64,000 nucleotides of DNA, taken from assembly GCA_947477745.1 (NCBI GenBank), contig CANJUF010000001.1, positions 1-64,000 on the forward strand. The letters are read 5' to 3'. The DNA is from Sphingomonadaceae bacterium (GTDB lineage: Bacteria > Pseudomonadota > Alphaproteobacteria > Sphingomonadales > Sphingomonadaceae). The position numbers and the translations under genes are program-made. Numbering within the stretch: the stretch's first letter is position 1; each line of letters begins with the position of its first letter. The notes under the pieces were generated by a model. That model did no database searches. It was not told where the DNA came from and saw only the letters and a list, made by a program, of their open reading frames with translations. Positions 3,162-20,162 of this stretch are shown here, piece by piece.

Positions 3162-3581
3162 TCAGGCGCCCTGCTCTTGTTGCAGGTCCGCAAAGTCCGG
3201 GCTCTCGCCGTAGACCGTGCTGTCGCCGTGCGTGAGGAATGCCTCCCACACGACCCCGTCGGGATCGGCGATCCAGCTCTTTTCCGACTTGGCGTAGCAG
3301 CAGGTGGTCTCGCCTTCTTCAAGCACGGGAGCGCCCGCCGCCTTGAGGCGGCCGTAAACCTCGGCAAGTTCGCTGCCGTCATCGACCTGCAGGCCAAGGT
3401 GCTCCACGCCCTTTTCGGCCCCGCACTTTTGCGAGACCGCAAAGTTGACACGCGGATCGTCGAGCATCCATTTGGCGTAGTCGGGCTTGGTCACGCTCGG
3501 CGCGGTGCCGAACAGGCCTGAATAGAAAGCGATCGAGGCATCGAGGTCGGCGACCCCGACATGAACGTGAAAGCGTTTCAT
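3162..3581 (-). CDS. arsI: ArsI/CadI-family VOC protein, probable C-As lyase
   Basis: 139 residues starting at the ATG at 3581, which overlaps the arsR stop by four bases (ATGA). The single glyoxalase-fold domain carries His5, His61 and Glu113 as likely Fe(II) ligands and a vicinal cysteine pair, Cys94-Cys95, in [11 protein letters not shown]. That pair binds trivalent organoarsenicals in characterised ArsI enzymes, which split methylarsenite or degraded roxarsone into arsenite. Coupling to an arsenite exporter fits this role: the product would be pumped out. CadI, a cadmium-induced relative, shares the fold and cysteines, so the exact substrate needs a test. Confidence 0.85.
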
Positions 3582-3922
3582 GCGACATCCTTTGCTTCGG
3601 AAATTTGAGGGGTGCAGGACGGCGCAGGCACACATGCCTCGCCGCCGCAGCAGTTTTCCATGAGATAGGCCATCAACCCGCCCATCGCGGCGTAATCGGC
3701 CGAATAGACGATCGAGCGGCTATGGCGCCGCTGCGTCACCAGTCCGGCATTGGCGAGCTGCGCGAGATGAAAGCTCATCGAGGAGGCGGGGACCGCCAAG
3801 GCCTGCGCCAAAGCGCCCGCCGGCATTCCTTCCGGCCCGGCCTGCACCAGCAGCCTGAAGGCCGCGAGACGATGTACCTGCGCCAGCGCCGCCAGGGCGC
3901 GGATGACCAAATCAGATTGCAT
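3578..3922 (-). CDS. arsR: ArsR-family metalloregulatory repressor
   Basis: 114 residues with a winged helix-turn-helix (about 15-75; recognition region PASSMSFHLAQLANAGLV) and a cysteine-rich tail: Cys91-Cys92, Cys97 and Cys103 in MENCCGGEAC. Three close C-terminal cysteines are the As(III) site of the Acidithiobacillus-type ArsR proteins, different from the E. coli alpha-3 helix site. It heads the leftward unit arsR-arsI-acr3, and its stop overlaps the arsI start. The near-perfect palindrome just upstream is very probably its own operator, giving derepression by arsenite. Confidence in family is high; in metal, good from context. Confidence 0.92.
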   Translation of the reverse strand: MQSDLVIRALAALAQVHRLAAFRLLVQAGPEGMPAGALAQALAVPASSMSFHLAQLANAGLVTQRRHSRSIVYSADYAAMGGLMAYLMENCCGGEACVPAPSCTPQISEAKDVA

Positions 3923-3930
3923 CGCTAGTA

Positions 3931-3962
3931 TTCCACATTTCTATATTTATAGAAATATGGAA
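3931..3962. promoter_or_regulatory. ArsR operator palindrome
   Basis: Two 15-base arms, TTCCACATTTCTATA (3931-3945) and TATAGAAATATGGAA (3948-3962), pair at 14 of 15 positions around a 2-base centre. The palindrome lies 9 to 40 bases upstream of the arsR start. It is much more AT-rich than its surroundings. Position and symmetry fit a dimeric ArsR repressor site. Confidence 0.75.
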
Positions 3963-8231: not shown

Positions 8232-9008
8232 TCAGCGGCCCTTCCAGACCGGCGCGCGCTTTTCGACAAAAGCCAGCGGACCCTCCTGCCAGTCTTCGGT
8301 GCCGCGCAAGCTGGCGATCGCCGCGTCGCCCGCGCGCATGCCGTCTTCGTCAGAAAGGTCGATAGCCTGCTTGGCGAGCGCCAGCCCGCCCTGCACCGCC
8401 AGCGGCGCATTGACCGCGATGGCGCGGGCAAGCGCCAGCGCGCCCTCGATATGCTGTCCGGTGGGCACGACGCGGTTGAGCAGGCCGATCTCATAAGCGC
8501 GCGCAGCCGTGATCGGATCGCCGGTGACGATGATCTCGGTGGCGACATTGCGCGGAATGACCTTGGCAAGCCGGCTGACCCCGCCGGCGCCCGCGAGCAG
8601 GCCGCGCTTCGACTCGGGCAGGCCGAACTTCGCTTCCTCGCCGGCCACGATCATGTCGCAGGCGAGCGCAATTTCCATGCCGCCCGCCAATGCCTGTCCG
8701 CCAATCGCCGCGATCCACGGCTTGCGCCGTTTGGCCTCTACAAATCCGCCGAAGCCGAAGCCATCGACGTACAGCTCCAGGCCGCGCCCTTCGGACACTG
8801 CCTTCAGGTCGGCCCCGGCGCAGAATACCTCTCCGCCCGACGAGCACAGCACGACAATCCGCACTGCGTCGTCGGCTTCGCTGCGACGAACCGCATCGGC
8901 CATGCCCTGCGCAACTTCGACATTGACGGCATTGCGCTTTTCCGGCCGGTCGATGGTGACCTTGGCGATCCAATCCTCGACGATTTCATACCGCACTGTT
9001 TCGGACAT
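8232..9008 (-). CDS. Enoyl-CoA hydratase/isomerase family protein
   Basis: 258 residues, standard for the crotonase family. The ATG at 9008 has a GAGGGAAG site; an ATG at 9026 is also in frame but less well placed. Oxyanion-hole stretches AGADLKA and GGQALAGGMEIALACDM are intact, and a catalytic glutamate follows in FGLPESKRGLL. It hydrates or isomerises an unsaturated acyl-CoA. It is first in a leftward two-gene unit with the NDP-forming acyl-CoA synthetase and divergent from the SDR at 9121, with 112 bases between them. The exact acyl group is unknown. Confidence 0.9.
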   Translation of the reverse strand: MSETVRYEIVEDWIAKVTIDRPEKRNAVNVEVAQGMADAVRRSEADDAVRIVVLCSSGGEVFCAGADLKAVSEGRGLELYVDGFGFGGFVEAKRRKPWIAAIGGQALAGGMEIALACDMIVAGEEAKFGLPESKRGLLAGAGGVSRLAKVIPRNVATEIIVTGDPITAARAYEIGLLNRVVPTGQHIEGALALARAIAVNAPLAVQGGLALAKQAIDLSDEDGMRAGDAAIASLRGTEDWQEGPLAFVEKRAPVWKGR

Positions 9009-9037
9009 GCTGCTTCCCTCTTGCATGGTTCAATTGG

Positions 9038-9060
9038 TTAGACGTATCGCTGACGCCTAA
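9038..9060. promoter_or_regulatory. Inverted repeat in divergent promoter region
   Basis: TTAGACGT (9038-9045) and ACGCCTAA (9053-9060) pair at 7 of 8 positions across a 7-base spacer, between the divergent crotonase (start 9008) and SDR (start 9121). It has the size of a dimeric regulator site. The linked IclR gene is one candidate binder, but the sequence differs from the 14-bp palindromes further on. Confidence 0.4.
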
Positions 9061-9120
9061 TGCATTATGCGCCATGTGCAAGAACGCACGGCGGGACGCA
9101 ACTTGGAGAGGGCGAGGCAC

Positions 9121-9957: not shown

Positions 9958-9978
9958 TGTTCTCTGCAGGAGAGAACA
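9958..9978. promoter_or_regulatory. Perfect inverted repeat upstream of iclR-type gene
   Basis: TGTTCTCT (9958-9965) and AGAGAACA (9971-9978) are perfect 8-base arms around GCAGG. The repeat ends 21 bases before the GTG start of the regulator. No T-run follows, so an operator, perhaps autoregulatory, is more likely than a terminator of the SDR gene. Confidence 0.5.
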
Positions 9979-9999
9979 CAAGATGAGGACCAATCCGGC

Positions 10000-10803
10000 G
10001 TGAGCATTATCGTGCCCCGCCCCGGCAGCGGCGGCCATCTGGCGGTGCGCGTCAAGCGACCGGCAGAACGGCGAAGCTCATCGCGTTCGGCGACCCGCGC
10101 GCTCGACGTGCTCGAACTGTTCGGCAGGGTTCACCGTCCGTTGCGCGCAATCGAGATTTCGCGCTCGCTTGACATGCACAGCTCGACAACCAACCAGTTG
10201 CTCAAGACCATGGTGGATTCGGCGCATCTGGTGTTCGACGCGCGCGCCAAGACCTACCTGCCCTCGCCGCGGCTCGCCGAATTCAGCGCCTGGATCGTCG
10301 AGAGCTACGGCGCCGACGGACGGCTGCGCAAGCTTATCGAGGAATTGCACCAGCAAACGGGGCTGGTGGTGACGGTGACCACGCCCAACGACCTGTTCAT
10401 GCAGATCGTCGATGCCGAAATTCCGACCGTGCCCGGCGACGTGCGCATGCCCGAGCGCGGGCTCCAGGTGTCGATCATCGGATCGGCGATCGGCAGCGCC
10501 TATCTCGCCACTCTCGACGACGAGGCCGTGCTGCGGCTCGCGCACCGCGCGCGGATCGACGAAAGCGACCTGCAGCCGCTGGTCGAGATGGCGCACCGCA
10601 TCCGCGAGGAAGGCTTCGCGGTGGGTCCGGCAGCGATGGACGGAGGCATGGGCTCGATGGCCATGGCGCTGCCCGCGCAAGGACTGCGCGTACCAGCCGT
10701 GGTCGGGCTTGCCGGTCCGATGACGGTGATCCGCAAGCGTCACGACGAATTCGCGGGCCTGTTGCGCGAAGGCATCGCGCGCTGGTTCGGGCAGGCACAA
10801 TAA
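10000..10803 (+). CDS. IclR-family transcriptional regulator
   Basis: 267 residues starting with GTG at 10000. An N-terminal winged helix-turn-helix (about 30-90; ATRALDVLELFG, then LDMHSSTTNQLLKTM) is followed by the IclR effector domain (about 105-265). An ATG at 9983 opens a six-codon frame (MRTNPA) whose TGA overlaps this GTG, which may couple or dampen translation. It is the only regulator in the 6-30 kb catabolic region, so it is the natural candidate for the palindromes at 9.96, 13.11 and 14.99 kb. The effector is unknown. Confidence 0.85.
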   Translation: MSIIVPRPGSGGHLAVRVKRPAERRSSSRSATRALDVLELFGRVHRPLRAIEISRSLDMHSSTTNQLLKTMVDSAHLVFDARAKTYLPSPRLAEFSAWIVESYGADGRLRKLIEELHQQTGLVVTVTTPNDLFMQIVDAEIPTVPGDVRMPERGLQVSIIGSAIGSAYLATLDDEAVLRLAHRARIDESDLQPLVEMAHRIREEGFAVGPAAMDGGMGSMAMALPAQGLRVPAVVGLAGPMTVIRKRHDEFAGLLREGIARWFGQAQ

Positions 10804-10965: not shown

Positions 10966-11802
10966 TCAGTTATCAACCCCCATGGTCCCGCCGACAGGGA
11001 TCCGGCTCATGGTTTCCATCATGCCCGGCCAGCCATTCGCAGTATAGCCGCCGTCGACCGCCAGCACCTGCCCGGTGACGAAGGACGACAGGTCCGACAT
11101 GAAGAAACAGACCGCCTTGGCAATCTCGAGGGTCTTGCCCCGGCGCTGCATCGGCACATGCGCGTTCATGTTCTGCTCGGAAGCAGGATCGTTCTCGGGA
11201 ATACGCGGGGTAATGATCGAGCCGGGGGCGACGATATTCACCCGGATGCCCCTGCCCGCCCATTCGACCGACATGGTCTTGGCGAGATGGATCAGCCCAG
11301 CCTTGGCCGCGCCGTAGGAGGCGTGAACCGCCGAGCCGCGAATACCATCGATCGATGCCAGCGCGCAGATATTCGCCTTGCCGCCGCGCGCGATCACCCG
11401 CTTGGCGAATTCTCGCGCCGCCCAGAAGAAATACCTTAGGTTGCGCTGGTGATCGAGGTCCCAGATTTCGGTGGTCATGTCGGTGATCTGCGCCCAGCCG
11501 GCCATGCCGATGATGCAGACCATGCCGTCAAGCGGGCCGAACTCGGTATCGGCCTTCTCGATCGCGGCGACCAGTTCTGCCTCGACCAGCACGTCGCAGC
11601 TAAGCGCATAGGACGAGACGCCTCGCGCCTCGAGGTCCTTGGCGACCTTCTGCGCCCGGTCGAGCTCGAGGTCGAGGATCGCGACATTGGCTCCGAATGT
11701 GGCGAGGACATGGGCGGTTGCCTCGCCGTTGCCCTGCCCGCCGCCGACGATCAGGACACGCTTGCCCTTCAGGTCCATCAATTGATCGATAGTAAGGTCC
11801 AT
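10966..11802 (-). CDS. SDR-family oxidoreductase
   Basis: 278 residues. The cofactor loop reads GGGQGNGE, an unusual variant of TGxxxGxG in which the middle residues are polar. The catalytic Tyr-Lys pair is in YGAAK, the serine in LASIDGIRG, and the C-terminus has GQVLAVDGGY. An NAD(P)-dependent alcohol or ketone dehydrogenase is expected. It is second in a leftward unit, four bases after the LLM gene, so it probably acts on that enzyme's product. The substrate is unknown. Confidence 0.86.
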   Translation of the reverse strand: MDLTIDQLMDLKGKRVLIVGGGQGNGEATAHVLATFGANVAILDLELDRAQKVAKDLEARGVSSYALSCDVLVEAELVAAIEKADTEFGPLDGMVCIIGMAGWAQITDMTTEIWDLDHQRNLRYFFWAAREFAKRVIARGGKANICALASIDGIRGSAVHASYGAAKAGLIHLAKTMSVEWAGRGIRVNIVAPGSIITPRIPENDPASEQNMNAHVPMQRRGKTLEIAKAVCFFMSDLSSFVTGQVLAVDGGYTANGWPGMMETMSRIPVGGTMGVDN

Positions 11803-11806
11803 CTAT

Positions 11807-13018
11807 TCATCCTCCCACAGGGGCTTCGGGCGTCTTTGCCCAGTTCTTTCCGGTAATCGATTTCTCGGCCTGCCTGATCCCGGCGGTCAGGCTGTTGGCG
11901 ACCCCGTTCTTGCCCATCTTCTGGAGCTCAGGGATCACATAGGTGCCAAGCAACTCGATCGACTTCATCACCGCGCTGTGCGGCAGGTAGCCGAAGTTGA
12001 TATAGCACAGCACCTGATCGACGCCGATTTCATCATAACGCGCGAGCTTCTGCAGGCATTCATCTGGAGTGCCGACTATGACCATGTCCTCGCGGTCGAA
12101 CATGGTGACGTCGAACTCGCCCTTGCGCTGTGCTTCAAGCACCGGGAAGGCCGCCTTCTGCTGCTCTTCTGAAAGATGCGCCATTTCCCACTTTAGGTGG
12201 AACTCGGCGAGACCCTTGTACCACCACCACATCGATTCCCACACCCGATCGGTCTCAAAGCTGTCACGGCTCTCGGCGCAGTGGACCAGTGTGTAGACGC
12301 CAACCTTGTTGGTATGCACGCTGGTAAGCGGCACGGCGGTTTCCTGCGCCTTGTGGTAGGCGTCGATGATCTCCTTGAGCCGGGTGAGCGGCTGCATGAT
12401 CGAGAAGCACAGGAGACCGCAACCGTTCTCCCCCGCCATGACCGCGCTCGATTCAGAAGACGCCGCCATCCACGCCGGGGGATGCGGATACTGGTAAGGC
12501 TTGGGCAGTATCATGCGCGGCGGGAACTTGAGGTATTCGGAGTCCTCCGAATAGACTTCCTGCTCCCACATGCCGACAACGGTGCGCGCCGCAGCCTTCA
12601 TCTTTTCCTTGCTGTTGGGAATATCGACTCCGAATGCGAGCTGTTCCATCGGTGTCGAGCGGCCCATCCCCCAGATCGCCCTGCCCCTAGACAACACGTC
12701 GACCGTAGCCACTTTCTCGGCAACGCGGGCGGGATGGATGAACTCATGCGGCATCAGGACAACGCCGAAGCCCAGCTTGATGCGTTCGGTGATCTGCGAA
12801 AGTGCACCAAGCACAACGTCGTTGCACGGCATGTGCGAGCGGTTTTCACGGAAGTGGTGCTCGACCAGCCAGACGGCCTCGAAGCCCATCTTGTCGGCCA
12901 GGCAGATCTGCGCGATCGAATCGGGATAGATTTTTCGCTCGGCCTCGCGCTGTCCCCAGGGGTGTTCCCCGGCCCACGGCTGCGGGCAGTCGAATTCGTA
13001 AAGCAGGCCTAGTTCCAT
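11807..13018 (-). CDS. LLM-class flavin-dependent monooxygenase
   Basis: 403 residues with the bacterial luciferase-like TIM barrel: an N-terminal MELGLLYEFD strand, the LVEHHF motif near residue 52, RIKLGFGVVLMPHEFIHPARVAEKVATVDVLS, and the long C-terminal insertions of alkane/nitrilotriacetate-type monooxygenases. It would use FMNH2 or F420H2, with reductant from elsewhere. It leads the leftward unit with the SDR, and a perfect 14-bp palindrome lies 93 bases upstream of its start. Family is certain; substrate unknown. Confidence 0.86.
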   Translation of the reverse strand: MELGLLYEFDCPQPWAGEHPWGQREAERKIYPDSIAQICLADKMGFEAVWLVEHHFRENRSHMPCNDVVLGALSQITERIKLGFGVVLMPHEFIHPARVAEKVATVDVLSRGRAIWGMGRSTPMEQLAFGVDIPNSKEKMKAAARTVVGMWEQEVYSEDSEYLKFPPRMILPKPYQYPHPPAWMAASSESSAVMAGENGCGLLCFSIMQPLTRLKEIIDAYHKAQETAVPLTSVHTNKVGVYTLVHCAESRDSFETDRVWESMWWWYKGLAEFHLKWEMAHLSEEQQKAAFPVLEAQRKGEFDVTMFDREDMVIVGTPDECLQKLARYDEIGVDQVLCYINFGYLPHSAVMKSIELLGTYVIPELQKMGKNGVANSLTAGIRQAEKSITGKNWAKTPEAPVGG

Positions 13019-13110
13019 GTCAGGATCCTCTCAGCTTTTTAGCTCTCTCTCGCCAAGCCTATTCCGCGCCTTGAGCGTGCGGCAAGCATTGCTCCGCACC
13101 GGCGCATTTT

Positions 13111-13124
13111 TCCGTAATTACGGA
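13111..13124. promoter_or_regulatory. Perfect 14-bp palindrome, candidate regulator site
   Basis: TCCGTAATTACGGA is a perfect palindrome upstream of the leftward LLM gene; it overlaps the stop codon of the cupin gene (13118-13120). A near copy, TCCGTAAATATGGA, lies at 14987-15000. IclR-type operators often have this 6-2-6 form; the binder is inferred. Confidence 0.55.
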
Positions 13125-13717
13125 TTTCGTTTGGTTGCGCCAGGCACCGGAATGAAGCCCACCGGCTGCGGCTCCTCAGCCCACACTGCCGCGTGCGCCT
13201 TGCGCGTCTCGGCGATCCGGTCCCAGTAGGTATTGCTCTTCGAGCGGAAGTTGGTGTCGTAGTCCTCGCTATTGCGAAACTCGATGAACTCGACGCCTTC
13301 GTCCAGCGGCGTGACCGTGTAGGGCGCGCCGGCCGGGATCATCACCCCGTCGCCCTTGCCCAGCACCTTGGTGCCCACCTTCATCGAGCCGCCGACGATC
13401 AGATAATAGCAGTCGGCATCGTGCGAGTGCAGCGGCAGCGGGTAGCCGCTCTTGAACCAGGCATAGGAGACATGCATCGTCTCGCTGCTGAACAGCACCA
13501 TCGCCGCCGCGCCGGGCGGACCGCTGTCCTCGCGCATCTGCTGGAGGCCACGCAGCGTTGCCGGGTGGAGCATCGTTGCCGGATCGGCAAAGCCCCGTGG
13601 CTTCCTCGGCTTCATCGGCTCGGCATCGGCGGCGCGGGTGATGACGAAACCGCCCGCGCGCCCTTCTTCGCGGATCATCTCCGCGTTTTCTGCATCCAGC
13701 GCAGCCTCGCCCGCCAC
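13118..13717 (-). CDS. Cupin-domain protein
   Basis: 199 residues if the GTG at 13717 is used; this lies 5 bases after the stop of the amidohydrolase gene, and the frame further upstream is only that gene's shadow. The core cupin motif is visible: PLPLHSHDADCYYLIVGGSMKVG gives the HxH..E-like metal site (with Asp/Tyr in place of the usual Glu region), followed by GDGVMIPAGAPYTVTPL. Cupins of this kind serve as small dioxygenases, isomerases or binding proteins. It is coupled to the amidohydrolase and resembles, in role, the cupin at 16838. Function is not assigned. Confidence 0.75.
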   Translation of the reverse strand: MAGEAALDAENAEMIREEGRAGGFVITRAADAEPMKPRKPRGFADPATMLHPATLRGLQQMREDSGPPGAAAMVLFSSETMHVSYAWFKSGYPLPLHSHDADCYYLIVGGSMKVGTKVLGKGDGVMIPAGAPYTVTPLDEGVEFIEFRNSEDYDTNFRSKSNTYWDRIAETRKAHAAVWAEEPQPVGFIPVPGATKRNP

Positions 13718-13722
13718 TGCGA

Positions 13723-14856
13723 TCAGTCCAGCCCGTAGAAACGTCGCGCGTTGTCCCGCACGATCGGCGTGATCTCGTCTTCGGGCACGCCTGCGAACTG
13801 GAAGTCCTTGTAAGCCTGCGATTCGGGCCAGGTCGTCTCCGAATGAGGATAGTCGGTCGACCACATCATGTTCTTGCCGCCCGGCAGGTTGCGGTTGCGG
13901 ATGCCTTCGCGGTCGCGGATGAAGGAAGTGTAGATGTTGCGGTCGAAATATTCGCTCGGCCTCAAGTCAAGCTTGAGGTTCAGCCAGTGCGACTGGGTGT
14001 CCATGATGCCGTCCATGTATTCGGCGACGAACGCTACCCAGCCCGAGCCGCTTTCGATCGAACCATAGCGCAGCTCCGGGAAGCGGTCGAACACGCCGCC
14101 AAACAGCATGATCGCAATAGGCTCGGCCATGGTCAGCTTGCTCATCACCAGATGCGGCATGAATTTCATCATGCCCGGCCGGGCGACGCGCGCGCCAAGA
14201 TGAATGGTGACCGCAAGATTGTGATCGACGCAGGTTTTCCAGAACGGATCGAAATGCGGATCATCGTATTGCAGCTTGCCTTCGGGATCGCCGGTCAAGG
14301 CCAGCACCTGCGCGCCGAAGCCGCCACCCACGATCGGGCCGGACTGCGGAAAGGCGGGAATGTTGACCGCACGGTGACCGCGCTTTGCGGCATCCTTGGC
14401 CATGCGGATCGATTCGTTGACGTCTTGCATCGGCAGATAGGCCGCGCCGACCAGTCGGCCCGGCGCGTAGGAGCAGAAATCAGCGAGCCAGTTGTTGTAG
14501 GCCTCGAAGCTGGCGAGATAGAGCTCGTTGTCGGCAGTGCCCAGCGGCCCGCCGCCATACATCACCGCCGTCTCGACGCCGTCCTTGTCCATGTCCTCGA
14601 GCCGCTTCGCCGGTTCCCAGTTGCCCGGCAGCAGCAGGTCCATCGTGCCTTCGGTCTTGAATTTCTTGCCCTGTCCCGAGGTCGCCGATTGCACGTTGAT
14701 CGGCTTGCGGGTGCCCTCGAACTCCATGAAGTCGGTCTTGTCGCCCGGGCCGCCAGCGACGAACTTGGGCCCGCGACCGGCAAATTTCTTGGGCAGATAT
14801 TCATCCCAGAAGGTCGGGATGGGGTTCACATGCGCATCGGCATCGACCAGTTGCAT
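13723..14856 (-). CDS. Amidohydrolase-2 family metal-dependent hydrolase/decarboxylase
   Basis: 377 residues from the ATG at 14856 (AGGAG site). An N-terminal DADAHV replaces the usual HxH metal strand, His residues follow in TIHLGAR, and the family-typical WSTDYPHSETTWP carries the conserved Asp. PF04909 members include ACMS decarboxylase, gamma-resorcylate decarboxylase and lactone hydrolases. It heads a leftward pair with the cupin and faces the deacylase at 15087 across a promoter region holding two palindromes. A distant relative lies at 17395. Confidence 0.8.
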   Translation of the reverse strand: MQLVDADAHVNPIPTFWDEYLPKKFAGRGPKFVAGGPGDKTDFMEFEGTRKPINVQSATSGQGKKFKTEGTMDLLLPGNWEPAKRLEDMDKDGVETAVMYGGGPLGTADNELYLASFEAYNNWLADFCSYAPGRLVGAAYLPMQDVNESIRMAKDAAKRGHRAVNIPAFPQSGPIVGGGFGAQVLALTGDPEGKLQYDDPHFDPFWKTCVDHNLAVTIHLGARVARPGMMKFMPHLVMSKLTMAEPIAIMLFGGVFDRFPELRYGSIESGSGWVAFVAEYMDGIMDTQSHWLNLKLDLRPSEYFDRNIYTSFIRDREGIRNRNLPGGKNMMWSTDYPHSETTWPESQAYKDFQFAGVPEDEITPIVRDNARRFYGLD

Positions 14857-14953
14857 GGCTGTTGCTCCTTTCGAGATCCTCACGTTCCGCAGTGTCGCGC
14901 GCATAGCGCAATCGGGCGGTACAGGGACGGGAGGCTCTGCTTTCGCGCCGTGT

Positions 14954-14974
14954 GAGTCAACACGTCCGTGACTC
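14954..14974. promoter_or_regulatory. Inverted repeat GAGTCA-N9-TGACTC
   Basis: Perfect 6-base arms (14954-14959, 14969-14974) around 9 bases in the divergent promoter region between the amidohydrolase (14856) and deacylase (15087). It sits 12 bases from the 14987 palindrome. It could be a second regulator site; a chance match is possible. Confidence 0.35.
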
Positions 14975-14986
14975 TGCCTTGCATGT

Positions 14987-15000
14987 TCCGTAAATATGGA
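14987..15000. promoter_or_regulatory. Near-palindrome matching the 13111 site
   Basis: TCCGTAAATATGGA differs from TCCGTAATTACGGA (13111-13124) at two positions and retains TCCG(T)A/TA(T)GGA symmetry. It lies between divergent starts 14856 and 15087, placed to control both units. Recurrence in two promoter regions of one cluster supports a shared regulator. Confidence 0.55.
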
Positions 15001-15086
15001 TTGCGCGAATGCGGATCATTGACGCTTCCGATTCGGCAGCACGCCGATAGCTTTCGCGGAAACGACAATCAAAGGCGGGATGAGCG

Positions 15087-16805
15087 ATGGAATACGACCT
15101 GATCGTGCGCGGCGGCACCGTCGTCGATGGAACCGGCCTTCCCCGGCGACGCATCGATGTCGGCATCAAGGACGGCAAGGTCGCGCGCATGGCGCGGCTC
15201 GACGGCGACACCGCCAAGGAAGAGATCGACGCCACCGGCAGGATCGTCGCCCCCGGCATCGTCGATGCGCACACCCATTACGATCCGCAGATCACTTTCG
15301 ATCCCTATGCGACGATGTCGTGCTTCCACGGCGTGACCACGGTGCTGGCCGGCAACTGCGGGTTTTCCGCAGCCCCGGTGCGCGCGGCCGACCGCGACTA
15401 CATCAAGAACATTTTCGCCCGCGTCGAGGACATGGACCCGATCGCGCTTAACGGCGTGCGCTTCGACAAGTTCGAGACTTTCGATGAGTTCCTGACCGTA
15501 CTGCGCGGAAATCTTGGCATAAATTTCGCCTGTTACGTCGGCCATTCCAACGTGCGCCGCTGGGTGATGGGCGAAGTGGCGTGGCAGCGCGCGGCGACTG
15601 ACGAGGAGATCGCGCAAATGTGCGAGATCGTCTCGGCAGCCATGCGCGCCGGCGCGGCAGGCTTCTCGACCTCGCTGCTCGGCACTCACCTCGACATGCA
15701 GAACCGCCCGGTGCCATCGCGCCTCGCCAGCCGCGAGGAACTGCTCGCGCTGGCCGAAGCGGCGGGCAAGGCGGGCAGCGGCTCGATCTGCTTCCTGCCC
15801 GAAGGCACCATCCGCGGCCAATCGAGCGAGGATCACGACATGATCGTCGCGCTCGCCAAGGTGAGCGGCATGCCCGTGGTCGTCCAGGGTCTTGGCGGCA
15901 AGAGCAAGATCGACGTGCCCGGATCGGGCTGGGAAGCGGCCAAGGAGCGACTCGACGAGGCGCAGGAGGCCGGCACCCCGTTCTATTCGATGCTGATCGC
16001 CCGTCCGTTCGACCGCCAGGTGGCCTTCGACGAGACGAACCACCACTGGCAGGCCTGCGGTCTGTGGCACACGATGACGCGCATGCCGATCGAGGAGCGG
16101 CGCGCGCTTCTGCAAGATCCCAAGGCGCGCGAGGAAATGCGTTTCGGGATCGAGAATCCGAACACCGATCCGTCCAAGGGGACGATCATCCCGCCGCCGC
16201 AGTGGCCGGTGGTTTTCGTCGAAAGTTCGCCCTCGCTTCCCGAGGACAAGCACCAGAACCGCTCGATAGCGCAGCTTGCCGAGGAAGCGGGCAAGGCCCC
16301 GGGCGATTTCGCGCTCGACCTTGCCCTGGCCGACGATTTCGCCACCAAACTGCGCTGGCGCATGACGGGGCCGGAATGGGACGCCTCGGTCGCCGCGACG
16401 ATGACCGATCCTCGCATGCTGATCGGCACCTCGGACGGCGGCGCGCATCTGGCCAAGGACGATCAGGCTGACTGGTCGAGCTATTTCCTCGGCGTCTGGG
16501 TGCGCGAGCGCAAGGTCGTCTCGCTGGAAGAAGGCGTGCGCCAGATCACGCAGGTTCCCGCCGGGATCCTCGGCTTCCACGATCGCGGGACGCTTCGGGT
16601 TGGCGGATGGGCCGATATCATGGTGTTCGACGAGGACGAGATTGGCCCGCTCCGGAAGGATTTCGTGCGCGATCTTCCCGGCGGCGTCGGGCGCTACAAG
16701 GCTTACGGCAAGGGCGTTTACGCCACCGTGGTCAATGGCCAGCCGATCGTGCTCGATGGCGAACTCACCGGCAGGCTGCCCGGCGTGGTGGTCACCCCGG
16801 CCTGA
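15087..16805 (+). CDS. N-acyl-D-amino-acid deacylase-type amidohydrolase
   Basis: 572 residues. Metal-site motifs of the urease superfamily: AHTHYD (His62, His64) after the APGIVD turn, GHSNVRR, and GTSDGGAHL near the C-terminus for the catalytic Asp. Length and order match D-aminoacylase/dihydroorotase-like enzymes, which hydrolyse N-acyl or cyclic amide bonds. It leads the rightward unit deacylase-cupin-amidohydrolase-acyl-CoA ligase. A divergent paralogue is at 24044-25792. The presence of two implies that amide or lactam cleavage matters in this pathway, but D-amino acid activity itself is not proven. Confidence 0.85.
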   Translation: MEYDLIVRGGTVVDGTGLPRRRIDVGIKDGKVARMARLDGDTAKEEIDATGRIVAPGIVDAHTHYDPQITFDPYATMSCFHGVTTVLAGNCGFSAAPVRAADRDYIKNIFARVEDMDPIALNGVRFDKFETFDEFLTVLRGNLGINFACYVGHSNVRRWVMGEVAWQRAATDEEIAQMCEIVSAAMRAGAAGFSTSLLGTHLDMQNRPVPSRLASREELLALAEAAGKAGSGSICFLPEGTIRGQSSEDHDMIVALAKVSGMPVVVQGLGGKSKIDVPGSGWEAAKERLDEAQEAGTPFYSMLIARPFDRQVAFDETNHHWQACGLWHTMTRMPIEERRALLQDPKAREEMRFGIENPNTDPSKGTIIPPPQWPVVFVESSPSLPEDKHQNRSIAQLAEEAGKAPGDFALDLALADDFATKLRWRMTGPEWDASVAATMTDPRMLIGTSDGGAHLAKDDQADWSSYFLGVWVRERKVVSLEEGVRQITQVPAGILGFHDRGTLRVGGWADIMVFDEDEIGPLRKDFVRDLPGGVGRYKAYGKGVYATVVNGQPIVLDGELTGRLPGVVVTPA

Positions 16806-16837: not shown

Positions 16838-17317
16838 ATGAGCGGCAAAATGGACGTTCCGGGCCCGCGTTTCCGGCACATGGACGGCGAAGACTGGCGC
16901 GAGGTCCGCGCCCAGACGCACGGCGACAAGCGCGTTTCCGTCTGGGAAAAGTGGCTCGAGGTCAGCCCCAAATGCATGACGCTGGTGGGCCGCTACGAGC
17001 CCGGCATGATCGTCCACAAGCACGGGCACAACAGCCATCACGTCATCTATGTGATGAGCGGTTCGATGATGTGCGGCGACCAGCTGTGCACGCCGGGAAT
17101 GCACATCACCCTCGATGAAGGTTCGGCGCTCGGGCCTCTGGTCGCCGGCCCCGAAGGCGTCGAGATGTTCGAGGTGTGGTTCGGCGATCCGCGTTCGTGG
17201 GCGGCCGATCCGGAGGGCTTCGACGCCCTGCTCGCGGAAAAAGGCATCACCAAGCTGCCTCACCCGCCGATCGATTTTCCCGAATGGATGAAGGAAGCGC
17301 AGAACGCGAAAAATTGA
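16838..17317 (+). CDS. Cupin-domain protein
   Basis: 159 residues from the ATG at 16838, with an AGAGGAG site 9 bases before. The cupin strand reads IVHKHGHNSHHVIYVMSGSMMCG, offering several His ligands, then CTPGMHITLDEGSALGPLVAGPEG. A metal is likely. It lies 32 bases after the deacylase and 77 before the next amidohydrolase. Like the cupin at 13118 it is paired with an amidohydrolase-2 enzyme, which suggests parallel roles. No reaction can be assigned. Confidence 0.8.
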   Translation: MSGKMDVPGPRFRHMDGEDWREVRAQTHGDKRVSVWEKWLEVSPKCMTLVGRYEPGMIVHKHGHNSHHVIYVMSGSMMCGDQLCTPGMHITLDEGSALGPLVAGPEGVEMFEVWFGDPRSWAADPEGFDALLAEKGITKLPHPPIDFPEWMKEAQNAKN

Positions 17318-17394
17318 CTCTGCCGGGCGACTGACCGCAATGTCCCTGCAGATGGAATGAGGCAGACAGACAACACTTCAAGAGGATGGAGACG

Positions 17395-18654
17395 ATGACC
17401 CAAACCTATTCCGACGAGCCTTATATCTGCATCACCGCAGATTCGCATGCCGGGGCGAACCACGCGACCTACCGCGAATATCTCGATCCCAAGTACCGCG
17501 ATCAGTTCGACGAGTTCCGCTCGGGCCGCAAGAGCGGCATGATGGCCTTGCAGTCGAAGAAGCACAAGAACTGGGAAACCGAGGTTCGCCTTGCCGATCT
17601 CGATGCTGACGGCACCTGCGGCGAGATCATCTTTCCCAACACCGTGCCGCCGTTCTATCCGGCCGCCTTCCACCTCTCGCCGCCGCCCAAGCCCGAAGTC
17701 TACGAATTGCAACTGGCGGGCGCACAGGCCCACAACCGCTGGCTGAAGGACTTCTGCGACGAAGCGCCCGAGCGGCGGGCGGGCATTGCACTGATGCACC
17801 TCAACGATATCGACGATGCGATCAAGACGGTCGAATGGGTGGCGAAGAACAATCTTCGCGGCGGCGTGCTGCTGCCATCGCCGCCCGACGACATGTGGAA
17901 CGTGGTTCCTCCGCTCATGAGCCGCGAATACGACCGGCTCTGGGCTGCGATCCAGGACCATGACATCACCGTGAACCAGCACTCCGGCGGCGGCGCGCCC
18001 GACTACGGCAAGCACCCGGGTTCGATGGCGCTATGGTTCAACGAGATGATGTTCTTCTCGCAGCGCAATTTCAAAAGCCTGATCTGGGGCGGCGTGTTCG
18101 AGCGTTTCCCCAAGCTGCGCTTCATCGTCACCGAGGCCGGCTGCGACTGGGTGCTGCCGGTGCTTGAAGGCATGGACGGCATCTGGCGCTCGATGAAGCA
18201 CGGCAACGCCGGCGAACTGCACTTCGACGATGCCGACGTCCTGCCCGAATCCCCCAGCTTCTATGCCAAGCGCAACTGCTATTACGGGGCGAGTTTCCCT
18301 GGCCGCAACGAGATCGACGGGCGCTATGAACTGGGCGTCGAACATGTGCTGTGGGGCAGCGACTATCCGCACCTCGAAGGCACCTATCCGGATTCGCGCA
18401 TGGCGATGCGGGTGGCGTTCCACGACCTGCCCGAGGACGAGGTTCGCGCCATGCTCGGCGGTAACGCGGCCAAGCTCTACAATTTCGACATGGAAGCGCT
18501 CATGCCGCTGGCGGCCAAGCTGGCTGTGATGCCCAAGGACGTGGCCAAGCCGGTGACCGCCGACGAGATCCCCGAAGATGCGCGCGCGCCGTTGCTGCTC
18601 AAGACCCGCCGGGAATTGCGCGGCGAGGCGTATGAGGTGGTCGGTCTGCACTGA
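17395..18654 (+). CDS. Amidohydrolase-2 family metal-dependent hydrolase
   Basis: 419 residues. Start taken at the ATG at 17395, nine bases after AAGAGG; the ATG at 17386 sits directly on that site. ITADSHAG gives the N-terminal metal strand, NQHSGGG a central His, and WGSDYPHLEGTYPDSR the conserved Asp and signature near the C-terminus. Distantly related to 13723-14856, but about 40 residues longer, with a C-terminal extension of about 50 residues. It lies 26 bases before the acyl-CoA ligase, so cleavage may yield the acid that is then activated. Confidence 0.82.
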   Translation: MTQTYSDEPYICITADSHAGANHATYREYLDPKYRDQFDEFRSGRKSGMMALQSKKHKNWETEVRLADLDADGTCGEIIFPNTVPPFYPAAFHLSPPPKPEVYELQLAGAQAHNRWLKDFCDEAPERRAGIALMHLNDIDDAIKTVEWVAKNNLRGGVLLPSPPDDMWNVVPPLMSREYDRLWAAIQDHDITVNQHSGGGAPDYGKHPGSMALWFNEMMFFSQRNFKSLIWGGVFERFPKLRFIVTEAGCDWVLPVLEGMDGIWRSMKHGNAGELHFDDADVLPESPSFYAKRNCYYGASFPGRNEIDGRYELGVEHVLWGSDYPHLEGTYPDSRMAMRVAFHDLPEDEVRAMLGGNAAKLYNFDMEALMPLAAKLAVMPKDVAKPVTADEIPEDARAPLLLKTRRELRGEAYEVVGLH

Positions 18655-18680: not shown

Positions 18681-20162
18681 ATGGCTGAAATGCTGCTGGG
18701 CGACTTGCCCGAAGCCCAGGCGGCTCGCCTTGGCGCGGACAGGTGGGCCATCCGGCACGGCGAGGACGTGCTCACCTGGGGCGCTCTCGCCGACCGGGTG
18801 CGCCGCCGCGCGCATGCCTTGGCGTCTGCCGGGATCGGCTTGGGTGACCGGGTCGTGCTCGCCCTGCCTAACTGCAATGCCCTTTTCGAGCTGACCTTTG
18901 CGCTGTGGAAGCTGGGTGCAACCCCGACCATGGTTTCGGCCAGGCTGCCGAGGGCCGAACTGGAATCGATCCTCGAGCTTGCCGAGCCTCGTGCGGTGAT
19001 TGCCGCCGATCCCGCCTTGCGCGAGGCGCTTGGCGCACTGCCTCCCGAGTTCGGCAGCGACCACCCTGACGGGTCCCCGCTCGAAACCCGGCTCTCACCG
19101 TGCTGGAAAGTGATGACCTCGGGAGGCTCGACCGGCAGGCCCAAGCTGATCGTCGATCATGGCCCGGCGAAACTGGACGGGGCGGTGTTCAACCAGCTGG
19201 GCATTCCGGACGACGGCGTTCTGCTCAACGCGGGTCCGCTCTATCACAACTTCCCCTTCGCCACCGCGCACATCGGCCTGCTGAAGGGCTGTTCGGTCGT
19301 CGGCATGGAGAAGTTCGACGCCGAGCTGTTCCTCAATCTGGTCGAGCGATACCGCGCGCAGTGGGTGACACTGGTGCCGACGACGATGAACCGGGTGGCC
19401 CGGCTGCCGCGACCGGTGCTGGATAGCCGCGACGTTTCCTCGCTCGAAGCCGTGTGGCACACGGCGGCGCCGATGCCGCCTTCGCTCAAGCAGTTCTGGA
19501 TGGACTGGCTCGGCGCGGAGCGCATCTGGGAAATTTACGGCGGCTCGGAAGGCTTTGCGACGACGCAAATCAGCGGAACCGACTGGCTGACGCATCGCGG
19601 CTCGGTGGGCAAATGTGTCGGCGGCGAAATCCTCGTCCGCAGCGAAAACGGCGAAGCCCTGCCCCCCGGCGAAGTGGGCGAGGTTTACATGCGCCGCAAT
19701 GGCGTCTCGCCCGACCAATCGACCTATCACTATGTCGGGGCGCAATCGCGGCGACTGCCCGACGGGTTCGAAAGCTTCGGCGATTTCGGTTGGGTGGACG
19801 AAGAGGGGTTCCTCTACATCGCCGACCGCCGCACCGACCTGATCCTGTCGGGCGGGCGCAATGTCTATCCAGCCGAAGTGGAATCGGCGCTGCTCGGGCA
19901 CGAAAGGGTTGCAGAAGCAATCGTGATCGGCTTGCCCGACGCGGATCTTGGCGCCCGCGTCCATGCCATTGTCAGGCTCGAACAAGGCGCTGCGGCAAGC
20001 GCTGCAGATTTGATCGATTTCGCGCGGGAGCAACTGGTCGCCTACAAGCTGCCGCGAACGATCGAGTTCACTGCGGAGCCGCTTCGCGACGAAATGGGCA
20101 AGGCAAGGCGCAGCCGCCTGCGCGAGGAGCGCATAGCCGCGATGGAGCAGCCGTCAGGCTAA
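18681..20162 (+). CDS. AMP-forming acyl-CoA ligase
   Basis: 493 residues. The adenylate-forming P-loop TSGGSTGRPK is at 146-155, YGGSEG is the A5 motif, GDFGWVDEEGFLYIADRRTDLILSGGRN the A7-A8 hinge, and EMGKARR carries the catalytic lysine (about 476). The order resembles bile-acid/aromatic acid CoA ligases. It converts a carboxylic acid to an acyl-CoA with ATP. It ends the rightward unit, and its stop overlaps by 4 bases the stop of the convergent S9 peptidase gene. Confidence 0.9.
   Translation: MAEMLLGDLPEAQAARLGADRWAIRHGEDVLTWGALADRVRRRAHALASAGIGLGDRVVLALPNCNALFELTFALWKLGATPTMVSARLPRAELESILELAEPRAVIAADPALREALGALPPEFGSDHPDGSPLETRLSPCWKVMTSGGSTGRPKLIVDHGPAKLDGAVFNQLGIPDDGVLLNAGPLYHNFPFATAHIGLLKGCSVVGMEKFDAELFLNLVERYRAQWVTLVPTTMNRVARLPRPVLDSRDVSSLEAVWHTAAPMPPSLKQFWMDWLGAERIWEIYGGSEGFATTQISGTDWLTHRGSVGKCVGGEILVRSENGEALPPGEVGEVYMRRNGVSPDQSTYHYVGAQSRRLPDGFESFGDFGWVDEEGFLYIADRRTDLILSGGRNVYPAEVESALLGHERVAEAIVIGLPDADLGARVHAIVRLEQGAAASAADLIDFAREQLVAYKLPRTIEFTAEPLRDEMGKARRSRLREERIAAMEQPSG

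Follow-up and report, generated by a model that had tools for sequence, protein, structure and literature searches.

Two near-identical 14-bp palindromes in a catabolic gene cluster of a Sphingomonadaceae bacterium are very probably operators of one IclR-type protein that would control several scattered catabolic gene groups. The whole explanation, comprising IclR operators, an activator and effector-responsive control of several operons, is given a probability of about 80%. The window, that is the whole stretch of DNA analyzed, has a length of 64,000 nt (contig CANJUF010000001.1, positions 1 to 64,000) and belongs to a genome of 3.03 Mb in 63 contigs (G000). The sites, their conservation, the co-occurrence with IclR, the IclR-type core and the fixed TTG spacing were computed from this genome and its relatives.

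Palindromes and genes in the window

The putative operators, the neighboring genes and the predicted promoter elements are located as follows:

10000..10803, + strand, IclR-family regulator of 267 aa, the proposed cognate factor (Pfam HTH_IclR and IclR_C)
10966..11802, - strand, SDR oxidoreductase, gene 2 of the LLM unit (domain search)
11807..13018, - strand, LLM (luciferase-like) flavin monooxygenase (Pfam Bac_luciferase)
13057..13062, - strand, predicted -10 ATAGGC of the LLM promoter, with a 17-nt spacer
13080..13085, - strand, predicted -35 TTGCCG of the LLM promoter, 25 nt past operator 1
13111..13124, - strand, putative operator 1, TCCGTAATTACGGA, upstream of the LLM-SDR unit, conserved in locus L070 and genome G051
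13118..13717, - strand, cupin-like gene with a putative start (listed ORF to 13864)
13723..14856, - strand, AH2a, Amidohydrolase-2 family (Pfam Amidohydro_2), with a putative start (listed ORF to 14904)
14955..14960, - strand, predicted -35 TTGACT of the AH2a promoter, 26 nt past operator 2
14987..15000, no strand assigned, putative operator 2, TCCGTAAATATGGA, between the divergent AH2a and AH3
15026..15031, + strand, predicted -35 TTCCGA of the AH3 promoter, 25 nt past operator 2, not a TTG
15048..15053, + strand, predicted -10 TAGCTT of the AH3 promoter
15087..16805, + strand, AH3, amidohydrolase-3, D-aminoacylase-like (Pfam Amidohydro_3)
16838..17317, + strand, cupin-like gene 3' of AH3, probably in the AH3 operon
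17386..18654, + strand, AH2b, Amidohydrolase-2 family, probably in the AH3 operon (domain search)
18681..20162, + strand, AMP-binding acyl-CoA synthetase, probably in the AH3 operon (domain search)

The earlier note had described near-identical palindromes at 13111-13124 and 14987-15000, upstream of the LLM-SDR unit and between the divergent amidohydrolase and deacylase units. Both are present there. Read directly from the window, operator 1 is a perfect 14-bp palindrome; operator 2 is imperfect, with two of seven pairs broken (G-T at 4/11 and A-A at the center), and differs from operator 1 at 2 of 14 positions. Operator 1 is flanked by the cupin-like gene, whose TAA stop codon it overlaps, and by the LLM-SDR unit, and these genes all run on the - strand. 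The operator begins 93 bp away from the start codon of LLM (13018, - strand). For operator 2, situated in the gap between the two divergent genes, the distance is 86 bp to the start of AH3 (15087) and 131 bp to the likely start of AH2a (14856). For both cupin-like genes no match in Pfam or NCBIfam was found, therefore their names were given by eye. A search of the LLM protein against plasmids resulted in no match at 1e-60.

Site 1 is also listed by a terminator scanner, which reports 13111-13124 as terminator-like on the + strand and would make it an intrinsic terminator or RNA hairpin. This reading deserves hardly any weight, as 2 such elements were found vs. 1.8 expected, the local genes are encoded on the - strand, where A and not T comes after the site, and the same motif occurs in divergent promoter regions.

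Recurrence and conservation of the sites

Taken alone, the window statistics make a weak case for the palindromes: with up to three mismatches 2 matches were found vs. 0.76 expected, and 14 of 100 shuffles reach 2. In G000, the exact 14-mers recur once each, site 1 at C5:44639 and site 2 at C5:23351, both upstream of catabolic genes. Up to one mismatch 3 places were detected vs. 1 for the control, and for TNCGTAWWTACGNA at the same threshold the counts are 11 vs. 5 in G000 and 6 vs. 4 in G012. Frequent random occurrence, regarded in the earlier note as evidence against a regulon, was thus not observed for exact and one-mismatch sites, but at up to two mismatches the genome-wide count equals that of the reversed control (7 vs. 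7). Six of these seven places are located upstream of catabolic genes and the seventh (C13) inside an ORF.

Among the 59 genomes of the genus, the own genome included, 16 sites with up to one mismatch were found vs. 7 for the control. Seven of them belong to G000, G012 and G051, which carry a close IclR homologue, two to G052 and seven to six other genomes (G031, G033, G034, G036, G055, and G056). The nine sites of the first four genomes all lie upstream of targets or target orthologues, whereas no target orthologue was found within the 3-kb loci around the other seven. In G055, one of the two sites is near a 55% homologue of the hydrolase neighboring the G000 SDR operon (L008 7227-8528), the other one near an SDR at 32% identity. 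With up to two mismatches the counts of sites and control are 8 vs. 1 in G012, 7 vs. 2 in G051, and 3 vs. 4 in G052; the other two-mismatch sites of these genomes were listed with their genes only and are excluded from the claims on orthologous sites.

In total, six conserved sites were identified, belonging to LLM-SDR, AH2a/AH3, an SDR operon, two BVMO-like flavoprotein units and a further amidohydrolase. The AH2a/AH3 site reads TCCGTAAATATGGA in G000, G012, G051 and L070 and TCCGTAATTACGCA in G052, and the LLM site TCCGTAATTACGGA in G000 and L070 and TCCGTAAATACGGA in G051. At the C5 SDR operon TCCGTAATTACGGA is found in G000 and G012, with one change each in G051 and G052. The C12 amidohydrolase has CCCGTAATTACGGA in G000 (C12:31844) and G012 and CCCGTAATTATGGA in G051, the C5 BVMO TCCGTAAATATGGA in G000 and G051 and TCCGTAAATACGCA in G012, and BVMO2 TCCGTAAATATGAA in G000:C40 (C40:4843) and G012:C14. 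In the alignments of five site groups, the palindromes appear as runs of mostly invariant columns amid changed sequence; in the AH2a/AH3 alignment the distant G052 sequence is not aligned site to site, and the BVMO2 pair says less because its flanks are also similar in both genomes. As a point against the proposed regulon, the close genomes share gene content.

Similarity of the palindromes by chance could be argued from the weak window statistics and the two-mismatch counts. Its probability is nevertheless considered negligible: exact recurrences, the excess at one mismatch, the TNCGTAWWTACGNA excess and the conservation at orthologous positions place the site pair above chance, as does the held-out matrix test described below. 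That the two palindromes represent real operators is accordingly a prediction close to certainty.

Several matches were left out of the regulon. G000:C13:51776, C5:92762, and C9:20605 lie inside called ORFs, although such labels are soft, since the simple gene caller drew ORFs over sites in L010, L070, L073, L074, L077, L082, and L098. G012:C1:23008 is situated beside another IclR gene, and the matching G000 locus has no site within three mismatches. G000:C3:136436 (TTCGTATATACGGA), which precedes a toxin-antitoxin-like pair (by eye), was omitted as well. In the same region (L099 8420-8450, G000:C3:136419-136449), GTATATAC is repeated just before a VapBC-like pair (8458-9119, by eye); these elements are perhaps a toxin-antitoxin operator mimicking the motif.

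Proposed assignment to the IclR protein

The protein encoded at 10000-10803 contains an N-terminal HTH_IclR domain (35.5 bits, Pfam cut-off 22) and a C-terminal effector domain IclR_C (27.3 bits, cut-off 24). The HTH_IclR model detects 6 places above cut-off in G000, of which three look like full-length IclR genes; for the other two full-length genes no site within three mismatches is present in their 3-kb loci. The two best NCBIfam models for the window protein are the PcaR/PcaU/PobR and BhcR subfamilies. It belongs to neither, because the scores of about 35 bits (35.2 bits for TIGR02431, PcaR/PcaU/PobR, cut-off 284.75) compare with cut-offs of 285 and 350.

Homologues were found in 5 of the 59 genus genomes (E ≤ 1e-40) and in 2 of 298 family genomes (E ≤ 1e-50), the own genome being part of both counts, and those of G012 and G051 are 86-91% identical to the window protein. 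A scan of the genome collection resulted in 15 IclR loci with 51-91% identity, including MAGs labelled Caulobacteraceae and Rhodovastum as well as Sphingomonas solaris; the nearest records are Novosphingobium MAGs. Novosphingobium sp. JCM 18896, a cultured relative, carries IclR and LLM together with the site. Thirteen of the 15 loci contain an LLM gene, complete or truncated at the contig end, and in the remaining two (L068 and L071) the contig ends just past IclR. No LLM start is contained on the contigs of L068, L069, L071, and L072, and L076 duplicates L049. In G051, IclR and LLM are found on different contigs. The module is present twice in one genome, G036 (L050 and L051, whose sequences equal L080 and L081 of Novosphingobium chloroacetimidivorans), where the operator regions of both copies are near-identical.

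For the held-out test, a weight matrix was trained on non-LLM sites only, taken from five operons in four close genomes. With this matrix a significant motif was detected upstream of 13 of the 13 LLM genes from genomes that also encode this IclR, including LLM homologues down to 50% identity. The p-values range from 0.002 to 0.032, with p ≤ 0.004 in 11 cases (500 shuffles each, floor 0.002), and the 13 regions are not independent: L050 and L051 belong to one genome, L073 and L074 are near-identical, and the window, L070 and L046 form one clade. The best matches upstream of the LLM start begin 96-122 bp from the ATG. For LLM genes in genomes lacking this IclR (G042, G253, and G345; p 0.23-0.85), none of three has the motif, an absence that is not independent since those genes sit inside operons; G253 has a 35% homologue. 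A second matrix includes the LLM sites in its training, so that their scores under it are high by construction, and loci without this IclR score up to 13.4, 8.9, and 6.4.

The gene content of eight distant loci was compared using queries from L078, L079, and L082. With overlapping shadow frames set aside, only IclR and LLM recur in all eight at ≥45% identity among the 14 best matches listed. An argument that the motif tracks IclR and not LLM was dropped, as the L077 IclR locus does carry an LLM gene (70% identity, 13755-12547, - strand, tblastn), preceded by tandem sites at -118 and -97. IclR and LLM are never apart in any IclR locus long enough to tell; therefore the choice of which one the motif tracks depends on its IclR-type shape and the three negative genes.

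This shape can be compared with the group-1 IclR motif GKTYCRYW3-4RYGRAMC (Suvorova and Gelfand 2021, PMC8222616), for which tandem sites 18-22 nt apart are reported; such tandems occur in many but not all groups. Both window sites match the inner core TYCRY-W4-RYGRA (letters read by eye), and tandem palindromes 20-22 bp apart, within the published distance, occur in L049, L077, L078, L079, and L080/L081; none were found in the window, L070, L073-L075, and L082. The outer GK...MC bases are mostly absent, with AA...AA in site 1 and GT on the left only in site 2, for which reason the sites are called group-1-like. From the even-length subgroup iv of the same source, CRA-W4-TYG, they differ by T before W4 (CRT). 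The printed site of PbaR from Sphingobium wenxiniae (AATAGAAAGTCTGC CGTACGGCTATTTTT), likewise a sphingomonad IclR protein and an activator of a 3-phenoxybenzoate catabolic cluster, also differs from the window sites (PMC8222616).

A different dimeric regulator, e.g., of the TetR or GntR type, might bind the palindrome, with IclR being merely the neighbor of LLM. This would agree with a gene in the C5:44639 cluster that by eye resembles TetR (L008 12471-13133), with G052 (57% complete), which has two conserved sites yet no IclR at E ≤ 1e-40, and with the inseparability of IclR and LLM in distant loci. Furthermore, the IclR gene has no site of its own: no site scoring ≥10 was found near it in the window or the scanned IclR loci, in contrast to the autoregulatory sites of group-1 systems. 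IclR proteins generally, though not universally, autoregulate. Such a regulator is nonetheless quite unlikely in view of the IclR-type core and tandem spacing, and IclR is the only non-LLM family recurring in all eight distant loci among the matches listed. Binding of the palindromes by the IclR protein at 10000-10803 is hence proposed as highly probable. The idea of the earlier note, one dimeric regulator and most simply this protein, is supported by the co-occurrence, the eight distant loci, the group-1 core and the tandem spacing.

Upstream of the IclR gene, a perfect inverted repeat, TGTTCTCT-GCAGG-AGAGAACA, was noted at 9958-9978 and 9983-10003; in close relatives (L044, L068-L070) both of its arms seem to have changed together. 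As a rival IclR operator, the repeat TGTTCTCTGCAGGAGAGAACA preceding this gene was rejected, since its letters are not kept in relatives. In addition, four of the five close genomes, judged by eye, have a mini-ORF of 5-6 codons whose terminal TGA shares bases with the GTG start codon of IclR, which suggests translational coupling.

Promoter geometry and content of the putative regulon

Seven of nine representative LLM promoters (window, L049, L075, L077, L078, L079, and G036) have a -35-like TTG exactly 25 nt past the promoter-proximal operator, the proximal site being used where two exist (L077, L078, L079, and G036). The exceptions are L073 (L074 is the same) with TTG at 15 and L082 at 24. 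The spacing was noticed by eye before the test was written; among 3,000 shuffled sets none reached 7 TTG at this offset, the best having 4. A smaller set of eight representatives has 6 at offset 25, and a wider one of 14 promoters without L077 has 7 at 25 and 11 within 24-27. For other G000 operons the -35-like offsets are 25 for AH3 (TTC) and BVMO2 (TTG), 26 for AH2a (TTG), 27 for the SDR and BVMO operons (TTG), and 15 for C12. The AH2a hexamer TTGACT is kept at the same offset in all four genomes compared (window, L070, G051, and G012). No match to the sigma-70 consensus was found within 12950-15120. For LLM, transcription is predicted to start about 32 nt ahead of the ATG. Assuming a 16-18-nt spacer, the operator center lies at about -67, and at -57 for the 15-nt offset, on the same helical face.

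Activators usually have their sites entirely upstream of a weak promoter (class-I geometry). As the sites occupy this position relative to weak predicted promoters, an effector-responsive IclR activator is favored, and the protein probably acts in this way. Judged from the sequence, an IclR dimer would bind the 14-bp site TCCGTAWWTAYGGA on one helix face, about 32 bp upstream of the -35 hexamer and centered near -67. It would sense a substrate or intermediate and activate several scattered catabolic operons together; physical binding, activating sign and effector are all predicted features of the model.

The same operator could instead serve a protein that is mainly a repressor, or dual, and is released by an inducer. 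E. coli IclR is such a repressor. Catabolic IclR proteins are described as typically repressors in PMC13273656, where PheR of Sphingobium sp. SHPJ-2, likewise a sphingomonad IclR protein on a degradation operon, serves as an example. The PheR footprint, however, covers the start site from +23 to -21 and has a GCAACG core (PMC13273656), whereas the sites described here lie 15-27 nt upstream of the predicted -35 instead of overlapping the promoter, and the promoters predicted there are of poor quality. Repression is considered unlikely compared with the proposed activation.

In the window, the putative targets comprise the LLM monooxygenase, an SDR, amidohydrolases, cupin-like genes and the acyl-CoA synthetase. 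Outside the window, an SDR with a SnoaL-like gene, another Amidohydro_2 and a second flavoprotein are added. The C5 flavoprotein is nearest to PtlE-type BVMO (679 bits, under the cut-off of 1100) and adjoined by a divergent FA_hydroxylase and a P450. The linking of otherwise unconnected genes into a regulon, as suggested in the earlier note, thereby extends to several operons in G000 that are conserved in relatives; the operons outside the window and the activator-like spacing had been missed there. As a guess, the target set would carry out the stepwise oxidation and the ring or amide opening of a cyclic compound. Targets may vary between lineages, since the gap between the AH2a/AH3 homologues near IclR in L077 lacks a site (best score 2.8).

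More tentatively, with somewhat less than an even chance, the protein may be a new IclR activator that controls a whole pathway for one cyclic compound through at least six unlinked operator sites (LLM, SDRs, two BVMO-like flavoproteins with P450, and several amidohydrolases). Its geometry (25 nt, sometimes one helical turn shorter) would have been kept across distant Alphaproteobacteria while the DNA in between diverged, and in the lineage of the window a tandem tetramer site would have turned into a single strong palindrome as the regulon grew. In the open-access literature, no description of the 14-mer or of an IclR regulon with LLM or BVMO was found; the regulon is newly outlined, and the kind of system is already familiar. 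The two palindromes become a defined, testable regulon, which allows enzymes from dispersed genomic locations to be studied as a single pathway. Co-regulation offers a handle on LLM, SDR, BVMO and amidohydrolase families, the substrates of which are difficult to deduce from sequence, and the conserved 25-nt operator-to-promoter spacing is a clean prediction of IclR activation.

Further candidate sites were observed. At L011 2767-2780 (G000:C9:2767), GCCGTATTTACGGA, a possible further regulon member, separates an enoyl-CoA hydratase-like gene from a divergently oriented flavoprotein-like one. In G025 (L049 7996-8009), the site TCCGTATATACGCA belongs to a separate SDR gene and lies 164 bp before its called start, therefore the putative regulon also spans two units there. 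A weak candidate, TTCGCATTTACGAA, is present in G012 (L103 6212-6225, G012:C12:20211), where an amidohydrolase-like gene probably starts a short distance downstream. Elsewhere in the window, the palindrome TCTATATTTATAGA (3940-3953) precedes, at a distance of 18 bp, a - strand gene called ArsR-like by eye (3578-3922); the palindrome is perhaps the own operator of this regulator.
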